From a virus, in the IMG/VR virus record IMGVR_UViG_3300025759_000704, positions 1-23,710 of that record: 23,710 bases of DNA; one strand, written 5' to 3'. This document shows positions 3,694-23,426 of this stretch, piece after piece. The notes below the pieces were generated by a model. It saw nothing but the letters and a program-made list of their open reading frames with translations. It did no database searches and was not told the origin of the DNA. The position numbers and the translations under genes are program-made. Within the stretch, counting starts at the first letter, position 1; every line of letters begins with the position of its first letter.

Positions 3694-5976
3694 ATGTCTA
3701 AACTTCTTATCACGCAAGCCAAAACCCTTGCGGAGTACGACCCCCCGATCTTCATGCTGCCGGTGCGCCTTAGATTAAACGACGGAAAACTCGACAAGGT
3801 GCCAACCTTGAGTTGGAAGGAGCCGGTGCCATTTCGTGAGCTTCTGCGATCGCTCAAGGGCACGAACGCCCTCGGGATCGACCTTGGGAAGTCTGGCCTC
3901 GTGACGCTGGACGTCGACAGTTACAAAGATGAGTGTAATTTCGACGCCTTCATCGAGGAGCATGACCTTGAGATACCCTACACTTGGAAGATCAAAAGTG
4001 GGTCGGGCGGGACGCACTACATCTTCGCGAACCCTAACGATCTGCGGTTCCGGGGGAAGATACCGGGCGTAGAGGCCGTCGACATCAAGGCGCACGGCGG
4101 TTACTCGGTCGCGCCTCCGTCGAAGCTCAAGGACCGCGTCTATGAATGGATCGTCGGACCAGACGAGCTTGAGGAAGGGCCTGCGATGGTGCCGCAGTGG
4201 CTCTTCGAGTGGGCGGGCAAGGACGGGACAGCCGGGGACATGGGAGAGAACCTGCGATTGAAGGCAGCGGCTCGCGACTTCCAAGAAAACATAGAGGTGC
4301 TCGACCAGCTCGCGGCGGCTCCGAACAATCTTGACGACCGCGAGGAGTGGCTGAAGATCGCCTTCGGTCTGTTCTTCGAGTTTCAGGATACGCCAGAGGA
4401 GGGCAGAGCTCGCGACGTGTTCCTGTCATGGTCGGCGAAGTGGGACGACAGCGAGAAGGCGGTCGAGAATGCGGTGACGACTTGGGACAGCCTGCCTCGG
4501 ATCGCGGAGCTTACGACGGACAACCCGGCGACGATCGCGTCGGTGGTGCGATACCTGCAAGAGAACCCAACACCTAAGACAGAGGAAGAGATCGCCGAGA
4601 TCAAGGAGACGGTGGCGGAGCTCACCAAGAAGAAGGTCGACAGAACCGACTTCCTCTATGATTTCTCTAGGATCGCTACCATCCCACCGCGACAGTGGGT
4701 TCATGGAACGGACGCGCTCAAGGGAGAGGTAACTATGGTCGCGGCACCGGGCGGGGTCGGTAAGTCGTCGACGGTGCTGGTCATGTCGCTTGCGATGGCG
4801 ACAGGTAAGTCGCTTCTTGGGCGTGAGACATACGGCACGCGAAAGGTGATGCTGTGGTCTGGCGAGGACGGCAGGACCGAGATCGACCGCCGAATTATGG
4901 CGGCGATGAAGCACTACAAGCTGACACCAAAAGACATAGGCGATCGGCTGCATGTCGTGACGCACGACGACCTTCCTCTGAACATGGTGCGAGAGGTAAA
5001 AGATCAGCAGGGCGACCGCAGGACCGAGATTAACTCGACAGACGTCGACTACCTGATCGAGTACATGCGAGAACATAAGATCGAGGTTGCGTCGTTTGAT
5101 CCTCTCGTAAGCGTTCATCAGACTGATGAGAACAGCAACACAGACGCGACGATCGTGACAGAGGCGTTCAAGAAGGTAGCGTCTCAGGCAGACGCGGCGA
5201 TCGTCCTCGTCCATCACGTCAGTAAAGGGGCGCTTCGGGACGACAGCAAAGGGGACGCAGCGGACGCGGCCAGAGGCGCGACGGCATGGGTCAATGCTTC
5301 CCGGGTAACGCTTGCACTTAGGCAGATGAGCGCAGCAGAGGCGTCGGCGTACAGGGTGACAAATGTTTACGACTACGCGGAGATCGTCGAGGCCAAGGCG
5401 AACGCCAGTGCACGGCACCTCGGCGGCAAGAGGTACATCGAGAAGGTCTCGGTGAATATCGGGAACGGGGACGCGATCTATATCGCAGGCGACGACGTCG
5501 GTGTCGTCGTCCCGTGGTCCCCAAACGGGGACATGCAGCTCGCTCTAGCGGAGAAGCTGATCTCGATCATGCACATCGTAAACGCGCAGCATGAGCTCTA
5601 TGACGACACAGGTGCGGGGTACATATTCCGCAACGAACAGAACGCACATTGGGCCGGTTACGGAGTGGCGCAGGCGCTCGGGCTGCCTATTGGAGAGGAG
5701 AGCTCTCAGACAAAACGGTCGAACGAAGAGAACCACAATCGCACCTTGATCCGGGCCTATTTCTCGAAGCTGATCGAAGAGAGTTATATGATCTGGGAGG
5801 ACAGAAACAAGCCTTCAGACCGTCACCCAGCCCCTGCTTATGTCGTGCTAAATGACGGGCTATTTGACCTGAAAGCACAGATCGGAGAGCTCAAGAAGCA
5901 GCCGAAAAAAGGTGCGGCACCTAGCGGCACCCAGACCCCAAAATGCGGGACTAAACCCACTTCAGGTGCCGCATAG
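3694..5976 (+). CDS. Bifunctional primase-polymerase / RepA-like hexameric helicase
   Basis: A 760-residue replication protein that should prime and unwind phage DNA. Residues 20-170 are a prim-pol domain: VTLDVD supplies the acidic pair D73/D75, SGSGGTH (102-108) the nucleotide-binding histidine, and VDIKAHGGY with APPS (129-142) the last motif. Residues 200-290 resemble a PriCT linker (REEWLKIAFGL). The helicase domain begins near 335, with Walker A APGGVGKSS (352-360), Walker B ending in SFDP (D469), the sensor LVHHVSKG (505-512) and RGATAWVNASR (528-538), typical of RepA-type AAA ATPases. The last 150 residues are helical with a basic tail. The ATG follows AAGGA at 6 nt. It is the first gene after the rightward promoter, and its final codons overlap the first repeats of the putative origin. 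Confidence 0.92.
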   Translation: MSKLLITQAKTLAEYDPPIFMLPVRLRLNDGKLDKVPTLSWKEPVPFRELLRSLKGTNALGIDLGKSGLVTLDVDSYKDECNFDAFIEEHDLEIPYTWKIKSGSGGTHYIFANPNDLRFRGKIPGVEAVDIKAHGGYSVAPPSKLKDRVYEWIVGPDELEEGPAMVPQWLFEWAGKDGTAGDMGENLRLKAAARDFQENIEVLDQLAAAPNNLDDREEWLKIAFGLFFEFQDTPEEGRARDVFLSWSAKWDDSEKAVENAVTTWDSLPRIAELTTDNPATIASVVRYLQENPTPKTEEEIAEIKETVAELTKKKVDRTDFLYDFSRIATIPPRQWVHGTDALKGEVTMVAAPGGVGKSSTVLVMSLAMATGKSLLGRETYGTRKVMLWSGEDGRTEIDRRIMAAMKHYKLTPKDIGDRLHVVTHDDLPLNMVREVKDQQGDRRTEINSTDVDYLIEYMREHKIEVASFDPLVSVHQTDENSNTDATIVTEAFKKVASQADAAIVLVHHVSKGALRDDSKGDAADAARGATAWVNASRVTLALRQMSAAEASAYRVTNVYDYAEIVEAKANASARHLGGKRYIEKVSVNIGNGDAIYIAGDDVGVVVPWSPNGDMQLALAEKLISIMHIVNAQHELYDDTGAGYIFRNEQNAHWAGYGVAQALGLPIGEESSQTKRSNEENHNRTLIRAYFSKLIEESYMIWEDRNKPSDRHPAPAYVVLNDGLFDLKAQIGELKKQPKKGAAPSGTQTPKCGTKPTSGAA

Positions 5977-6125
5977 TGCCGCGCCTTTTTTCAGCTAAGT
6001 CGTTGAAATACAACGATCGGACTTGCGGCACTGCGGTAGTAGCGCGGGACATTTTTGTAGGCTGGTGCCGCAGGCTTTTGTTCAACAAGTTCAAGGGGTT
6101 ATCCGTTTTGCGGGAGTGCGGGACT
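5913..6125 (+). repeat. Iteron-like TGCGGSAC repeat cluster, candidate replication origin
   Basis: The octamer TGCGG(C/G)AC or a one-base variant recurs about ten times in 212 bp. Direct copies start at 5913, 5923, 5944, 6024, 6043, 6109 and 6117. Inverted copies (GTGCCGCA or GTGCCGCG) start at 5966, 5976 and 6065, and a partial copy is at 6032. Several neighbouring copies are 10 or 19-22 bp apart, close to whole turns of the helix. The cluster spans the end of the primase gene and the following non-coding gap and uses different reading frames, so it is a DNA-level repeat and not a protein repeat. Position and form suit binding sites for the primase/helicase or another initiator. Confidence 0.6.
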
Positions 6126-6130
6126 AGCTG

Positions 6131-6173
6131 CCCCTCTTACAGAGGGGGACGTCGCCAACAGCGCGACGTCCCC
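6131..6173 (+). other. Two overlapping, mutually exclusive hairpins
   Basis: CCCCTCT (6131-6137) pairs with AGAGGGG (6141-6147) around TAC. The second, stronger stem is 11 bp: GGGGACGTCGC (6145-6155) pairs with GCGACGTCCCC (6163-6173) around seven bases. Bases 6145-6147 belong to both, so only one can form fully. An AT-rich stretch (AAAAGATATTTATA, 6178-6191) follows. This may be an RNA switch or attenuator before the helicase gene, or a structural part of the origin. There is no T-tract, so a plain terminator is less likely. Confidence 0.5.
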
Positions 6174-6241
6174 ATGCAAAAGATATTTATACGCGCCGAT
6201 CGCCGTGCAATCGTCGCGATCCAACCACGGGAGAGAATGGG

Positions 6242-7354
6242 ATGGAATTGACACCACAGCAGACGAGAGCCCTCGACTTGGTGCTTGCCGGTCGAAGCGG
6301 CACGCAGATCGGTGGGTTCGCAGGGACAGGGAAGACGACGGTCTTGGCTGAAGCAGCGAGACGCGACCCGACGATCATCTTTGCAGCACCGACCAACAAG
6401 GCCGCGATGGTGATGCGGTCGAAGATGCCGAGGCACACGGATGTGAGGACGTTTCACAAGATCACGCAGAAGCCGGTGATCGACAACACAGGCAAGCTCG
6501 TGGGCTTCGAGCCCGCAGAGCGTCTCCGGCATGGGGCGAGGGTCGTGGTTGATGAAGCCTCGATGATCGGGCAAAGGACATGGGACGTCGGGAGCTACGC
6601 GCTCGAGTACGCTGACGTCGTCCTCGTCGGTGATCCGGCGCAGCTTCCTCCGGTGAACGACACGCCGATCTTCGGGGGCGTCTTCGATCTCGTGCTTACC
6701 GATATTCACCGGCAAGCACAGGGCAACCCGGTTCTTGATCTGGCGACCCGGATCAGGACGACCGCTAAGTTCAGCCCTGAGTGGCTTGACGAGTTTGGCA
6801 TCGAGCAGATCGACGGGGCAAAGCTCAAGCGCGATCGTGAGGCGCTCTCTGCGATCTGGCACGGAGAAGCTCAGTATCTGTGCTTTACCAATCTGGACCG
6901 GGTGAAGGCGAACCGCATGACCCGGGCGTCAATGGGAGACCACACGCCGACACCTGCCGAGCAAGATGTTTTGCTGTTCTACGGCAGAGACCACGCAGAT
7001 AGGTGGCACAACGGATCGACGGCGGTGATCGAGGACGTGGTCGAGAGCCTCAACGGAGCGCACAACGTCAGTGCTTTGATTGATGGGTCAGACTTCGCCG
7101 ACGAGATCACGCTTTACGAGCCGGTTCTTGATGCGTCGAACGTCGGGCAAGCCTACGAAGCCTTGCCAGAGGACACGAGGCACAACTTCGCAATGGCGTC
7201 CTATGGCTACGCAATGACCGTGCACAAGGCACAGGGCAGCGAATGGCCGACGGTTTACCTCAAGGGCAACAACAAGCCGAGAGGGTCGGACGGGGTCAAG
7301 TGGCTTTACACGGCGATCACCCGAGCGCAGGATAATTTGATATGGGTGGGGTAA
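6242..7354 (+). CDS. SF1 DNA helicase, RecD/Dda-like
   Basis: A 370-residue superfamily 1 helicase of the RecD2/Dda type, a size normal for phage versions. Walker A is GFAGTGKTT (25-33), motif Ia is AAPTNKAA (48-55), motif II is VVVDEAS (101-107), motif III is VGDPAQLPPV (129-138). Near the C-terminus the RecD-type motif TVHKAQGSEWP and motif VI LYTAITRAQDNLIWVG complete the second lobe. It should unwind DNA 5' to 3' in replication or recombination. Both lobes look intact. The ATG has GGGAGAG about 5 nt upstream. It is separated from the primase gene by the 265-bp origin-like gap and shares its direction, so it probably belongs to the same rightward unit. Confidence 0.9.
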   Translation: MELTPQQTRALDLVLAGRSGTQIGGFAGTGKTTVLAEAARRDPTIIFAAPTNKAAMVMRSKMPRHTDVRTFHKITQKPVIDNTGKLVGFEPAERLRHGARVVVDEASMIGQRTWDVGSYALEYADVVLVGDPAQLPPVNDTPIFGGVFDLVLTDIHRQAQGNPVLDLATRIRTTAKFSPEWLDEFGIEQIDGAKLKRDREALSAIWHGEAQYLCFTNLDRVKANRMTRASMGDHTPTPAEQDVLLFYGRDHADRWHNGSTAVIEDVVESLNGAHNVSALIDGSDFADEITLYEPVLDASNVGQAYEALPEDTRHNFAMASYGYAMTVHKAQGSEWPTVYLKGNNKPRGSDGVKWLYTAITRAQDNLIWVG

Positions 7355-8337: not shown

Positions 8338-8461
8338 TCGCAAGCCGGGAATGTATGAGACCAAGAGCGAGGCGCTACTCGCCCTTGGCCCGGTCGTCGT
8401 CGTTGGTGCGCTGTTCATTGGGGCGATCGTCTACGCCGTCCTCAAGATGACAGCGGCATGA
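8330..8461 (+). CDS. Small single-pass membrane protein
   Basis: A 43-residue protein with a charged N-terminus and one strong transmembrane helix (about residues 19-39, rich in V, G, A, L and I), ending just after it in KMTAA. The GTG start was chosen because it overlaps the lipoprotein stop and has GTAAGG at about 9 nt; an internal ATG would give a 36-residue form. It could be a partner of the lipoprotein or a holin-like peptide, but it has no periplasmic coiled coil as inner-membrane spanins have. No family was recognised. Confidence 0.6.
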   Translation: MTDRKPGMYETKSEALLALGPVVVVGALFIGAIVYAVLKMTAA

Positions 8462-8928
8462 TCGAGGAAGAGGACGCCCGAGAAGAGCAGTACGAGCTCG
8501 ACGCTGTGATGATGCAGCTACAACACGATTGGAGACGCCTTCTGGCGTCTCACCATAACTTCACTCGCTCGTTCAAGGACGAGCTAGACGCCCTCCTCAG
8601 AGCATCACAGAGCCTGCTACCCGAGCAGGTGGACGACGTGATCTCATGCGGTCCACTAGAGGCGAGCCTCCTGTCTGGTCGCTGCACTTGGAGGGGCCGA
8701 GCTGTTCCCCTGTCCCATATGGAGCTGAAGCTAACCAGCACCTTAGCCAAGCGTCCAGATCAGCTATACGACCGCGACTTCCTGATGAGCGCTTTTATAC
8801 CGGACGGAGACAGCGATCGTCTGGTCGACAGCCACATAAAGCGCATTCGACGCAAGTTTGAGGCGGTCGATCGGGACTTCCGGCAAATATACACGATTTA
8901 CTCAGCAGGCTATAGGTGGAACCCATGA
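8458..8928 (+). CDS. Stand-alone OmpR/PhoB-type winged-helix DNA-binding protein
   Basis: A 156-residue protein whose residues 66-156 match the effector domain of two-component response regulators (Trans_reg_C type). It shows an N-terminal sheet (CTWRGRAVPLSHMELKL), the recognition region RLVDSHIKRIRRKF (121-134) and the final wing hairpin IYTIYSAGYRWNP (144-156). The receiver domain with its phosphorylated aspartate is absent; residues 1-60 are instead acidic and helical, perhaps for dimer formation. It should bind DNA without a phosphorylation switch, and could control late phage genes or mimic a host regulator such as ChvI. It overlaps its neighbours on both sides by ATGA and precedes the packaging genes, a fitting place for a late-gene regulator. 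The fold call is firm and the role is inferred. Confidence 0.85.
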   Translation: MIEEEDAREEQYELDAVMMQLQHDWRRLLASHHNFTRSFKDELDALLRASQSLLPEQVDDVISCGPLEASLLSGRCTWRGRAVPLSHMELKLTSTLAKRPDQLYDRDFLMSAFIPDGDSDRLVDSHIKRIRRKFEAVDRDFRQIYTIYSAGYRWNP

Positions 8929-21198: not shown

Positions 21199-21525
21199 AT
21201 GCCTGATTGGCGAATATACTACGACACTGGCACGTATGACAGCAATCAGGGGGAGCCGCATCAGGCTCCCTCGGTCGGCTTCATTGTGGCTGTGGGGTAT
21301 GATGAAGCAGGTGATCGCTTTCTAATGCAGGGCTGGTCGCACTACTGCTTCGATAAGGCCAGCAATCAATGGTGGGGCATGGACGACATGGGGGTCTTCG
21401 ACAGGCTCCGGCGTAATCTGGTCTATGCGTATAAAGAGGGCCGCACGGTTACCAAGTCGGAATGGAACGCGATTATGGAACGCGCTCACAAAGACCCCGA
21501 CTTTCCGTTCGGTGTTAAGAGATGA
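21199..21525 (+). CDS. Small aromatic-rich phage protein, unknown function
   Basis: A 108-residue protein with the notable stretch WSHYCFDKASNQWWGMDDMG (45-64), rich in Trp, Tyr and Met. Its N-terminus is beta-rich (WRIYYDTGTYDSNQ) and its C-terminal 40 residues are helical and charged (RLRRNLVYAYKEGRTVTKSE). Similar short proteins occur among phage tail genes without known role. AAGGGG stands 7 nt before the ATG and the stop overlaps the next start (ATGA). Confidence 0.65.
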   Translation: MPDWRIYYDTGTYDSNQGEPHQAPSVGFIVAVGYDEAGDRFLMQGWSHYCFDKASNQWWGMDDMGVFDRLRRNLVYAYKEGRTVTKSEWNAIMERAHKDPDFPFGVKR

Positions 21526-23426
21526 CACACGTCAATCCGATCCTAAGACAAGACGCCTTCCGGGGCCGGGTAGACAGTGGCAACGAGGCAACCCCGACAT
21601 GGATCGTCGCAGCCGATACAAACTGGACGCAAGCGGTGGACACCGATTTTCGCGTGCGCTTTGTTATCCAAGAAACCGCAGGAGCGTCGAACCCGTCAAC
21701 GGTCACGCCTCTGGTCTTCTACTCCATAAACGGCGGAGGCTATGCGGCTGTCACAGCCTCGACGCCTATCCAATTTGGCACGTTTACCGGCGCGACTGAC
21801 GACGACGCCACGACAGCGCAGCTCGGAGCCGGGACGTTTGTCACCGGGAGACTTGACGATAGCGGAGCGGTGACGACTGCCGACATTCAAGGCAGCGAAA
21901 CGGAATATGAATACTGTCTGAGCATTGACAGCGCACAGGTCGCAAACAGCGACACGATCACGCTGCAAGTCTACGACAGCGCAACTCCTCTCGATCAATA
22001 CGGCTCTGTGCCTTCGATCACGGTGCTGGAGGCAGACCCACCGATCGAGGCGGATATTCCGGCGACTGCTTACACGCTCACGGCTCCGGTTCCGACGTTC
22101 GACATTGTCACCGTCACCGACTTCGACATCGGCCTCACGACCTACACATTCGCGGCACCGGCACCGACATTCCGCGTCGATACTGTCACCAACTTCGACA
22201 TCGGCCTCACGACCTACGCGCTCACGGCACCGGCTCCGGCGTACACCGAAGCGACCGGCTATATGATCGGCGCGACCACTTACACCCTCACGGCACCGGC
22301 TTCGATCCTGACACAAGAGCCACTCTTCAGATTGCAGACGGGTGACGTTCTTGATCTGTCGAACCCGGCGATCCCGGGAGCGTTACAGTTCTACGCCTTC
22401 CCGGCGATCGACGTCGGCCTCACAGCCTACACTCTCACGGCACCGGCTCCGTCCTTTACCGAAGCAGTGGGCTATTTAGTAGGCGCAACGACCTACACTC
22501 TCACGGCACCGGCTCCGTCCTTCACCTCGACAACCGGCTATGTGGCAGAAACCGCAGCCTATACGCTGACCGCACAGACGCCGATCCTGACACCGGAGCC
22601 GCTGTTCAAGTTGCAGACGGGTGAAGTGCTCGATCTGTCGAACCCGCTGATCCCGGGAGCGTTGCAGCTCTATTCGTCTCCACCGATAGACGCCGACATA
22701 GGTGTCACGGCCTACGCACTCACGGCACCGGCTCCGTCCTTCACAGAAGTGACTGATCTCGACATAGGCGTCACGGCCTACACAGAGACCGCTCAGACGC
22801 CAATCCTGACGCCGGAGCCGCTGTTCAAATTGCAGACGGGTGAAGTGCTCGACCTGTCAAACCCGCTGATCCCGGGAGCCTTGCAGCTCTACGCCTTCCA
22901 AGCGTCCATAGGTGTCACGGCCTACACAGAGACCGCACAGACGCCAATCCTGACACCGGAGCCATTGTTCAAGTTGCAGACGGGTGAAGTGCTCGACCTG
23001 TCAAACCCGCTGATCCCGGGCGCTTTGCAGCTTTACGCCTTCCCACCTGTCGAGGCTGACGTCGGCGTCACAGCCTACGCTCTCACGGCACCGGCTCCGA
23101 CCTACACCGTAGAGCTGGACCTTAATGTAGGTGTAACTGCCTACATCCTCACGGCGTTCGCTCCGGGTATCACGACGACCTCAGAGATCAACGTCGGGTC
23201 GACCGACTACACCTTGACCGTGCTCGACCTTACCTTCGATCTGCCGAGCATAACGAGGCCGGGACAGCAGACGTCGACGTCTGGGGGCAGCGCTGCAAAC
23301 TCGACAAACTCTGCCGGAAGTCGTAACAATACGGCAAGCGCTACCGGGTCAAAGAACCGCACGACAGACACGAGCACGCGAAACACGACTTCGGGCGGCA
23401 CAGACACCAAGAACAGGACGGGCTGA
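21522..23426 (+). CDS. Repeat-rich phage tail or surface protein
   Basis: A 634-residue protein in three parts. Residues 1-175 form a beta-sandwich-like domain seen in phage structural proteins (FRVRFVIQETAGASNP; LGAGTFVTGRLDDSG; SETEYEYCLSID). Residues 182-570 consist of repeats: a short one of about 20-25 residues centred on (I/V)G.TAYTLTAPAP (roughly 13 copies) and a long one of 30 residues (EPLFKLQTGEVLDLSNP in its middle) present four times. Residues 580-634 are a Ser/Thr/Asn/Gly/Arg tail, likely unfolded. There are no enzyme motifs. Copies are near-identical in DNA, so copy number may vary by recombination. It probably forms an extended fibrous or adhesive element on the virion. Confidence 0.75.
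   Translation: MTHVNPILRQDAFRGRVDSGNEATPTWIVAADTNWTQAVDTDFRVRFVIQETAGASNPSTVTPLVFYSINGGGYAAVTASTPIQFGTFTGATDDDATTAQLGAGTFVTGRLDDSGAVTTADIQGSETEYEYCLSIDSAQVANSDTITLQVYDSATPLDQYGSVPSITVLEADPPIEADIPATAYTLTAPVPTFDIVTVTDFDIGLTTYTFAAPAPTFRVDTVTNFDIGLTTYALTAPAPAYTEATGYMIGATTYTLTAPASILTQEPLFRLQTGDVLDLSNPAIPGALQFYAFPAIDVGLTAYTLTAPAPSFTEAVGYLVGATTYTLTAPAPSFTSTTGYVAETAAYTLTAQTPILTPEPLFKLQTGEVLDLSNPLIPGALQLYSSPPIDADIGVTAYALTAPAPSFTEVTDLDIGVTAYTETAQTPILTPEPLFKLQTGEVLDLSNPLIPGALQLYAFQASIGVTAYTETAQTPILTPEPLFKLQTGEVLDLSNPLIPGALQLYAFPPVEADVGVTAYALTAPAPTYTVELDLNVGVTAYILTAFAPGITTTSEINVGSTDYTLTVLDLTFDLPSITRPGQQTSTSGGSAANSTNSAGSRNNTASATGSKNRTTDTSTRNTTSGGTDTKNRTG
22305..23036 (+). repeat. Four copies of a 90-bp coding repeat
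   Basis: Copies lie at about 22305-22394, 22584-22673, 22803-22892 and 22947-23036. Copies two to four are almost identical in DNA; the first is more diverged (TQEPLFRLQTGDVL in place of TPEPLFKLQTGEVL). Shorter repeats coding TAYTLTAPAP lie between and around them (22065-23220). The near-identity at silent positions points to recent duplication. Confidence 0.85.

Follow-up and report, generated by a model that had tools for sequence, protein, structure and literature searches.

What is the function of a dense cluster of short repeats that begins inside the end of a viral primase-helicase gene and runs across its stop codon into non-coding DNA? The window, by which we mean the whole stretch of DNA analysed, is a virus record of 23,710 bases and a linear fragment, and the motif counts given for it cover that fragment alone. 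A sequence-only reading had proposed that the cluster, together with the hairpins and the AT-rich stretch that follow it, forms an iteron-type replication origin next to the gene of its own initiator.

The primase-helicase gene and its C-terminal domain

The gene that carries the repeats encodes a protein of 760 amino acids with Pfam matches for a Prim-Pol primase, PriCT_2 and an AAA_25 helicase (PF09250, 1.3e-18; PF08707, 2.9e-7; PF13481, 1.4e-33). The features of the gene and of its downstream neighbour are as follows.

3694-5976, plus strand: primase-helicase gene, 760 aa, with Prim-Pol, PriCT_2, AAA_25 RecA-fold helicase (Pfam) and predicted C-terminal winged helix
4645-5229, plus strand: AAA_25 (RepA-type) helicase domain, residues 318-512 (Pfam PF13481)
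5527-5847, plus strand: predicted C-terminal winged helix, residues 612-718, candidate reader of the array (AlphaFold2 model)
5638-5640, plus strand: codon of Q649, which covaries with word position 2 (covariation, held-out sets, motor tree)
5824-5826, plus strand: codon of H711 at the wing tip, which covaries more weakly with word position 6 (covariation)
6242-7354, plus strand: next gene, Dda/RecD-like SF1 helicase (PHROG 325, 1.1e-65; AAA_30; UvrD_C_2)

The C-terminal domain has no Pfam name, and apart from a near-identical copy no relative found exceeds about 30% identity to it. Modelling of residues 598-760 with AlphaFold2 (mean pLDDT 82) predicted a winged helix of three helices (612-635, 654-662 and 677-695) and a two-stranded wing (699-705 and 712-718), and the C-terminal domain of one relative gave the same predicted fold. 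A fold search of the PDB returned no match at E 0.001 or better; as the nearest structures were generic winged helices, they provide no structural template for contacts with the repeated word.

Elsewhere in the window, two genes on the minus strand (417-1619 and 1439-2821) encode a Cas4/RecE-like exonuclease (PHROGs 1706 and 434) and an SNF2-type helicase. The small protein encoded at 8458-8928 has an OmpR-type DNA-binding domain (Trans_reg_C, 3e-13), which is unusual for a phage, and a putative tail-region protein at 21522-23426 consists of repeat units that include LTAPAPSFTEAVGYLVGATTYT and PEPLFKLQTGEVLDLSNPLIPGALQLY.

A word array across the stop codon

The repeat cluster proposed at 5913-6125 was confirmed by motif counts. 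Its core, GCGGSA, occurs 10 times in these 213 bp, whereas its frequency in the rest of the window predicts 0.24 (Poisson p 1.7e-13), and the densest other 213-bp stretch in a count over the whole window holds three. The longer octamer TGCGGSAC is likewise enriched at the array relative to the rest of the 23.7-kb fragment, with six of its seven occurrences at 5913-6124; shuffled versions of the window contained a mean of 2.5, and none of 100 shuffles reached seven. The original estimate of about ten copies of this octamer therefore stands if one or two mismatches are allowed, but not for the exact octamer, of which the array has only six copies. On the other strand the octamer is read as GGTGCCGCA, with the variant AGTCCCGCA, and the array is best described by a 9-bp word.

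5913-6125, both orientations: iteron array of about 11 copies of the 9-bp word [AG]GT[GC]CCGCA, across the stop codon (motif count)
5913-5921, minus strand: word GGTGCCGCA, exact
5923-5931, minus strand: word GGTGCCGCT
5944-5952, minus strand: word AGTCCCGCA, variant
5965-5973, plus strand: word GGTGCCGCA, exact
5975-5983, plus strand: word AGTGCCGCG
6024-6032, minus strand: word AGTGCCGCA
6032-6040, minus strand: weak word ACTACCGCA
6043-6051, minus strand: weak word TGTCCCGCG
6064-6072, plus strand: word GGTGCCGCA, exact
6109-6117, minus strand: word ACTCCCGCA
6117-6125, minus strand: word AGTCCCGCA

The array straddles the primase-helicase stop codon, which ends at 5976, and the regular spacings described from the sequence were recovered at both intervals, with words 10 bp apart at 5913/5923 and 5965/5975 and 21 bp apart at 5923/5944, 5944/5965 and 6043/6064.

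Arrays beside the helicase gene in distant relatives

Conservation of the cluster in relatives had been named as a check of the origin proposal. Relatives of the helicase, mostly 25-40% identical, were collected from phages, plasmids, phage-plasmids, viral contigs and alphaproteobacterial genomes. The single near-identical contig found (L001) is uninformative on conservation. An initial comparison revealed several relatives with arrays of short words in both orientations 3' of the helicase stop codon, with a different word each time. Conservation thus holds for the architecture, an array at the same gene, but not for the exact octamer, and as the octamer itself was not found in relatives, tests for a shared template and for covariation were undertaken.

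To locate arrays irrespective of their sequence, 113 non-redundant loci, most of them 4-9 kb long, were each searched over their full length for the best 8-mer array. This array fell between 250 bases before and 450 bases after the helicase stop codon in 84 of the 113, compared with 8.3 expected if its position were random, and in 47 of 51 at a stricter threshold (log10 p <= -10). About a quarter of the relatives have no clear array at the helicase gene, including 12 with the winged helix. The words differ from locus to locus yet align on one template, [AG][GC]TGNNGCA. To avoid any circularity from fitting words to a template, the top 8-mers were also tested in raw, unfitted form; TGNNGC was present in 33 of the 65 taken from arrays at the stop codon, compared with 4.5% of 8-mers drawn at random from these loci (p 3e-27). 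Neighbouring words on the same strand are most often spaced by 8 or 10 bp.

The gene downstream of the helicase varies between loci, and the linkage of the array is to the helicase gene. In the Microcystis phage Mae-Yong1326-1 (L012), 18 copies of GGCGAGGG lie 2200-2423 bases past the helicase stop codon, and words of the form GACTGGCGC adjoin the helicase besides this array.

The primases found beside the helicase are of more than one kind. A Prim-Pol is fused to it in the window and in L010, a TOPRIM gene adjoins it in L013 and L014, and L016 has a weak, below-cutoff match resembling a RepB primase; L013, L014 and L016 all have a word array 3' of the helicase despite these unrelated primases. 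Across loci, the array goes with the replicative helicase gene while the primase differs, and the primase seems to be swapped independently of the module formed by helicase and putative origin. In the circular plasmids pVL1_6 (Methylobacterium) and pR24_3, a TOPRIM primase and the helicase are the sole replication genes listed in a gene table that is incomplete.

Hairpins, AT-rich DNA and GC skew

The hairpins and AT-rich stretch described 3' of the array are present in the window, and the DNA fold of 6126-6180 has a z-score of -4.6.

6131-6147, no strand: hairpin CCCCTCT-TAC-AGAGGGG, likely counterpart of the C4+/G4+ hairpins of relatives (sequence, fold, enrichment in relatives)
6145-6173, no strand: second, stronger hairpin GGGGACGTCGC / GCGACGTCCCC, overlapping the first
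6178-6191, no strand: AT-rich AAAAGATATTTATA, possible unwinding element (sequence)

Hairpins with at least four C and at least four G around a short loop are found in the relatives at 0.83 per kb in the region of the helicase stop codon versus 0.044 per kb elsewhere, a 19-fold enrichment contributed by 46 of the 113 loci, and their loop is most often TTTA or TAAA. The first hairpin of the window is a looser version of this element. The hairpin string CCCCTTTAGGGG was not found in the literature searched. A group of several near-identical viral relatives (L064-L097) has the hairpin CCCTACGGGG 3' of the helicase and no clear word array.

No consistent AT-rich element is common to the relatives, in which the mean AT profile is nearly flat. 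A switch of GC skew at the array had also been suggested as a mark of the origin; the skew does not change sign there in the window, and in two circular relatives, pVL1_6 and pR24_3, its minima and maxima lie away from the array. GC skew was dropped as an origin mark on these grounds.

Covariation of the word with the C-terminal domain

In 67 loci, the window included, word distance tracks the distance between C-terminal domains when motor distance is accounted for (partial r 0.24, 0 of 1000 permutations), and motor distance adds nothing once the C-terminal domain is known (partial r -0.04). The strongest aligned column for word position 2 corresponds to Q649 of the window protein (Z 12.9), and that for position 6 to H711 (Z 6.6). 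At residue 649, glutamine accompanies G at position 2 in 35 of 38 loci and arginine or lysine accompanies C in 15 of 23 (Fisher 3e-10 for Q versus R/K by G versus C). With Q649, H711 and the word GGTGCCGCA, the window agrees with the pattern, although its two residues would fit its own word by chance about 1 time in 5, a rough estimate from base frequencies.

A natural pair of loci, L039 and L044, illustrates the relationship. Their helicases share 77% identity over the motor and 51% over the C-terminal domain, residue 649 is Q in the former and R in the latter, and the words are GGTGTCGCA and ACTGTCGCA, respectively. The pairing is also kept where the array is displaced 0.8-1.8 kb downstream, as in L038, L044, L058, L063 and L070; certain other displaced arrays depart from the template. 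Because the word changes with the C-terminal domain, this domain is indicated as the reader, and comparison of the sequences suggests that the word is read by the helicase's C-terminal domain, the two forming a probable protein-DNA pair. The same covariation explains why the exact word is not conserved in relatives.

The residue-word rule was then applied to held-out loci. In a first set of 40 loci, less than 80% identical to the training set and with the register set blind to the variable positions, the base at position 2 was predicted correctly in 18 and wrongly in 3 (Fisher 5e-4), and that at position 6 correctly in 10 and wrongly in 3. In a second set of 54 loci, position 2 was right in 13 and wrong in 2 of the main-clade scan loci; over all loci it was right in 15 and wrong in 20. 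Arginine pairs with A or T in the divergent clade behind alignment A9, so that the arginine-to-C half of the rule fails there, and "R or K means C" was dropped as a general rule on the strength of this set. The association of glutamine with G is present in the second set, with G in 12 of 16 loci with Q versus 2 of 19 with R or K (Fisher 1.4e-4). The position-6 rule, to which E and D pairing with G had been added after the first held-out test, was right in 30 of 35, a success owed mostly to one clade with lysine paired to C, and its asparagine-to-G part was right in 1 of 4; this rule is largely clade-bound.

On a tree built from the motor only, word position 2 differs within seven independent pairs located on supported branches. 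Residue 649 changes in the same direction in 4.9 and in the opposite direction in 0.0 of the seven, which places it first of 288 columns; seven pairs are too few for this test alone to reach 0.05.

Comparison with known replication systems

In the initiator helicases SaPI Rep and SCCmec Cch2, the C-terminal domain recognises iterons directly 3' of its own gene, and these helicases are thought to be self-loading (PMC7581432). The window likewise has an array of short repeats immediately 3' of its helicase gene, but the SaPI Rep and Cch2 motors belong to the DUF927 and D5/SF3-like families, and Pfam gives the window protein AAA_25 (PF13481) and primase domains only, with neither DUF927 nor a D5/SF3-like motor. 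The window system, a RecA-fold AAA_25 helicase fused to a Prim-Pol in alphaproteobacterial-type phages, differs from SaPI and SCC in this respect.

P4 alpha is a single protein comprising a primase, a helicase and a C-terminal domain that binds DNA, and its origin has iterons (PMC4234260). An array of iterons is present in the window as well, there with a putative origin role. The suggestion that the window holds a P4-like replicon was nevertheless not borne out, since P4 alpha couples a TOPRIM primase to an SF3 helicase, whereas the window protein has Prim-Pol, PriCT_2 and an AAA_25 motor of the SF4/RSF1010 RepA-like kind. The pRN1 protein ORF904 unites an archaeo-eukaryotic primase, a helicase and a C-terminal winged helix, with the origin just downstream (PMC4234260). 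The window protein resembles it in having an archaeo-eukaryotic primase and a predicted C-terminal winged helix in one chain; it differs in its AAA_25 motor and iteron array, where pRN1 has an SF3 motor and a 100-nt stem-loop origin without iterons.

The motor itself belongs to the helicase family of RSF1010 and the IncQ plasmids, in which iterons are accompanied by hairpins where the primase starts and RepC is the iteron reader (PMC4234260). The window helicase is of the RepA-type AAA_25 kind, and IncQ RepA genes are among its relatives by tblastn. In IncQ plasmids (pBRST7.6 was compared), however, RepA ends after the motor at 287 amino acids and a separate repC adjoins it, whereas the window protein continues into a predicted C-terminal winged helix and the next gene encodes a Dda-like helicase. 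Because its motor is of the RSF1010 RepA kind, the window is not a member of the SaPI/SCC, P4 or pRN1 systems; by analogy, it would work like SaPI Rep, P4 alpha and pRN1 ORF904 while belonging to none of them. No description of this pairing of helicase and array was found in the literature searched, from which subscription journals were mostly absent.

Probable origin function and alternative explanations

The array at 5913-6125 is, in our assessment, quite probably an iteron-type replication origin recognised by its own Prim-Pol/AAA_25 primase-helicase. The proposal of an origin beside its initiator gene is supported by the equivalent arrays of the 84 relatives and by the change of their word with the C-terminal domain. 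The computation yields an array, its recurrence in distant relatives, a template common to them and the covariation of word and domain, and from these we infer binding, hexamer loading, unwinding, priming and the start of replication at the array. In the mechanism that we propose, the C-terminal winged helix of each subunit would bind one 9-bp word, with Q649, just before the second helix, and H711, in the wing, helping to set the bases read at positions 2 and 6. Words on the same strand 8-11 bp apart, together with more distant inverted words, would gather helicase subunits, on which hexamers could assemble without a separate loader. The helicase would then open the adjoining duplex, and the hairpins at 6131-6173 would become single-stranded and allow the fused Prim-Pol to prime there.

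The alternative that survives best keeps the helicase as reader of the array but makes the array an operator or a site of copy-number control, used for autoregulation, for incompatibility or to regulate the next gene, with replication starting at another place. Covariation indicates a probable protein-DNA pair and not an origin, and arrays can sit 0.8-1.8 kb away from the helicase gene. Control copies of such repeats exist in P4 and in iteron plasmids. The array, however, lies 3' of the gene and not at its promoter, and no sigma-70-like promoter was found at 5850-6260. Its linkage to the helicase gene, whereas the downstream gene varies, and the co-enrichment of hairpins with arrays also argue against a control site, which we consider unlikely.

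A protein other than the helicase, with a role in partition, packaging or repression, might read the array, and the covariation would then reflect the shared ancestry of linked genes. Linked genes do share trees, and only seven position-2 switches fall on well-supported branches. Against this, the motor encoded by the same gene does not predict the word when the C-terminal domain is already taken into account, residue 649 comes out first among the 288 columns on the motor tree, the displaced arrays of five loci keep the pairing and the neighbouring genes vary between loci; we give this explanation a slim chance.

Slimmer still is the chance that the inverted repeats serve to terminate transcription, or belong to a family of RNA-hairpin repeats after a convenient stop codon. 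Inverted words and T runs create four terminator-like sites at 5850-6260, where 0.5 are expected, and 5900-5931 can form a 32-nt pairing with 5965-5996; many of the words are direct repeats, however, with same-strand spacing peaks at 8 and 10 bp, and a terminator leaves both the change of the word with helicase residues and the template shared across loci unexplained. A chance cluster of a common octamer in coding, GC-rich DNA is hardly conceivable. The word is indeed rich in G and C, in a window of 57% GC, but chance is refuted by the Poisson probability of about 2e-13 computed from the remainder of the window and by the recurrence of arrays at the same gene in relatives.

Implications for phage and phage-plasmid replication

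The reading of the array as an origin recognised by the adjoining helicase may extend beyond the window. On balance, we favour the view that AAA_25 helicases with a C-terminal winged helix are a widespread and previously undescribed class of initiators in phages, prophages and phage-plasmids, mostly of Alphaproteobacteria, in which each replicon has its own origin word built on one template and a few winged-helix residues largely set specificity. Words and domains would co-diversify, thereby separating replicons. The replication origins of many phages and phage-plasmids would then be findable from sequence alone, and the principle of an origin beside the helicase that reads it would be extended to the RecA-fold family, whose known example, RSF1010, relies on a separate initiator protein. 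The words and residues that change together would serve as a natural data set on the evolution of origin specificity, and may indicate how the replication of related phages that share a cell could be kept separate.
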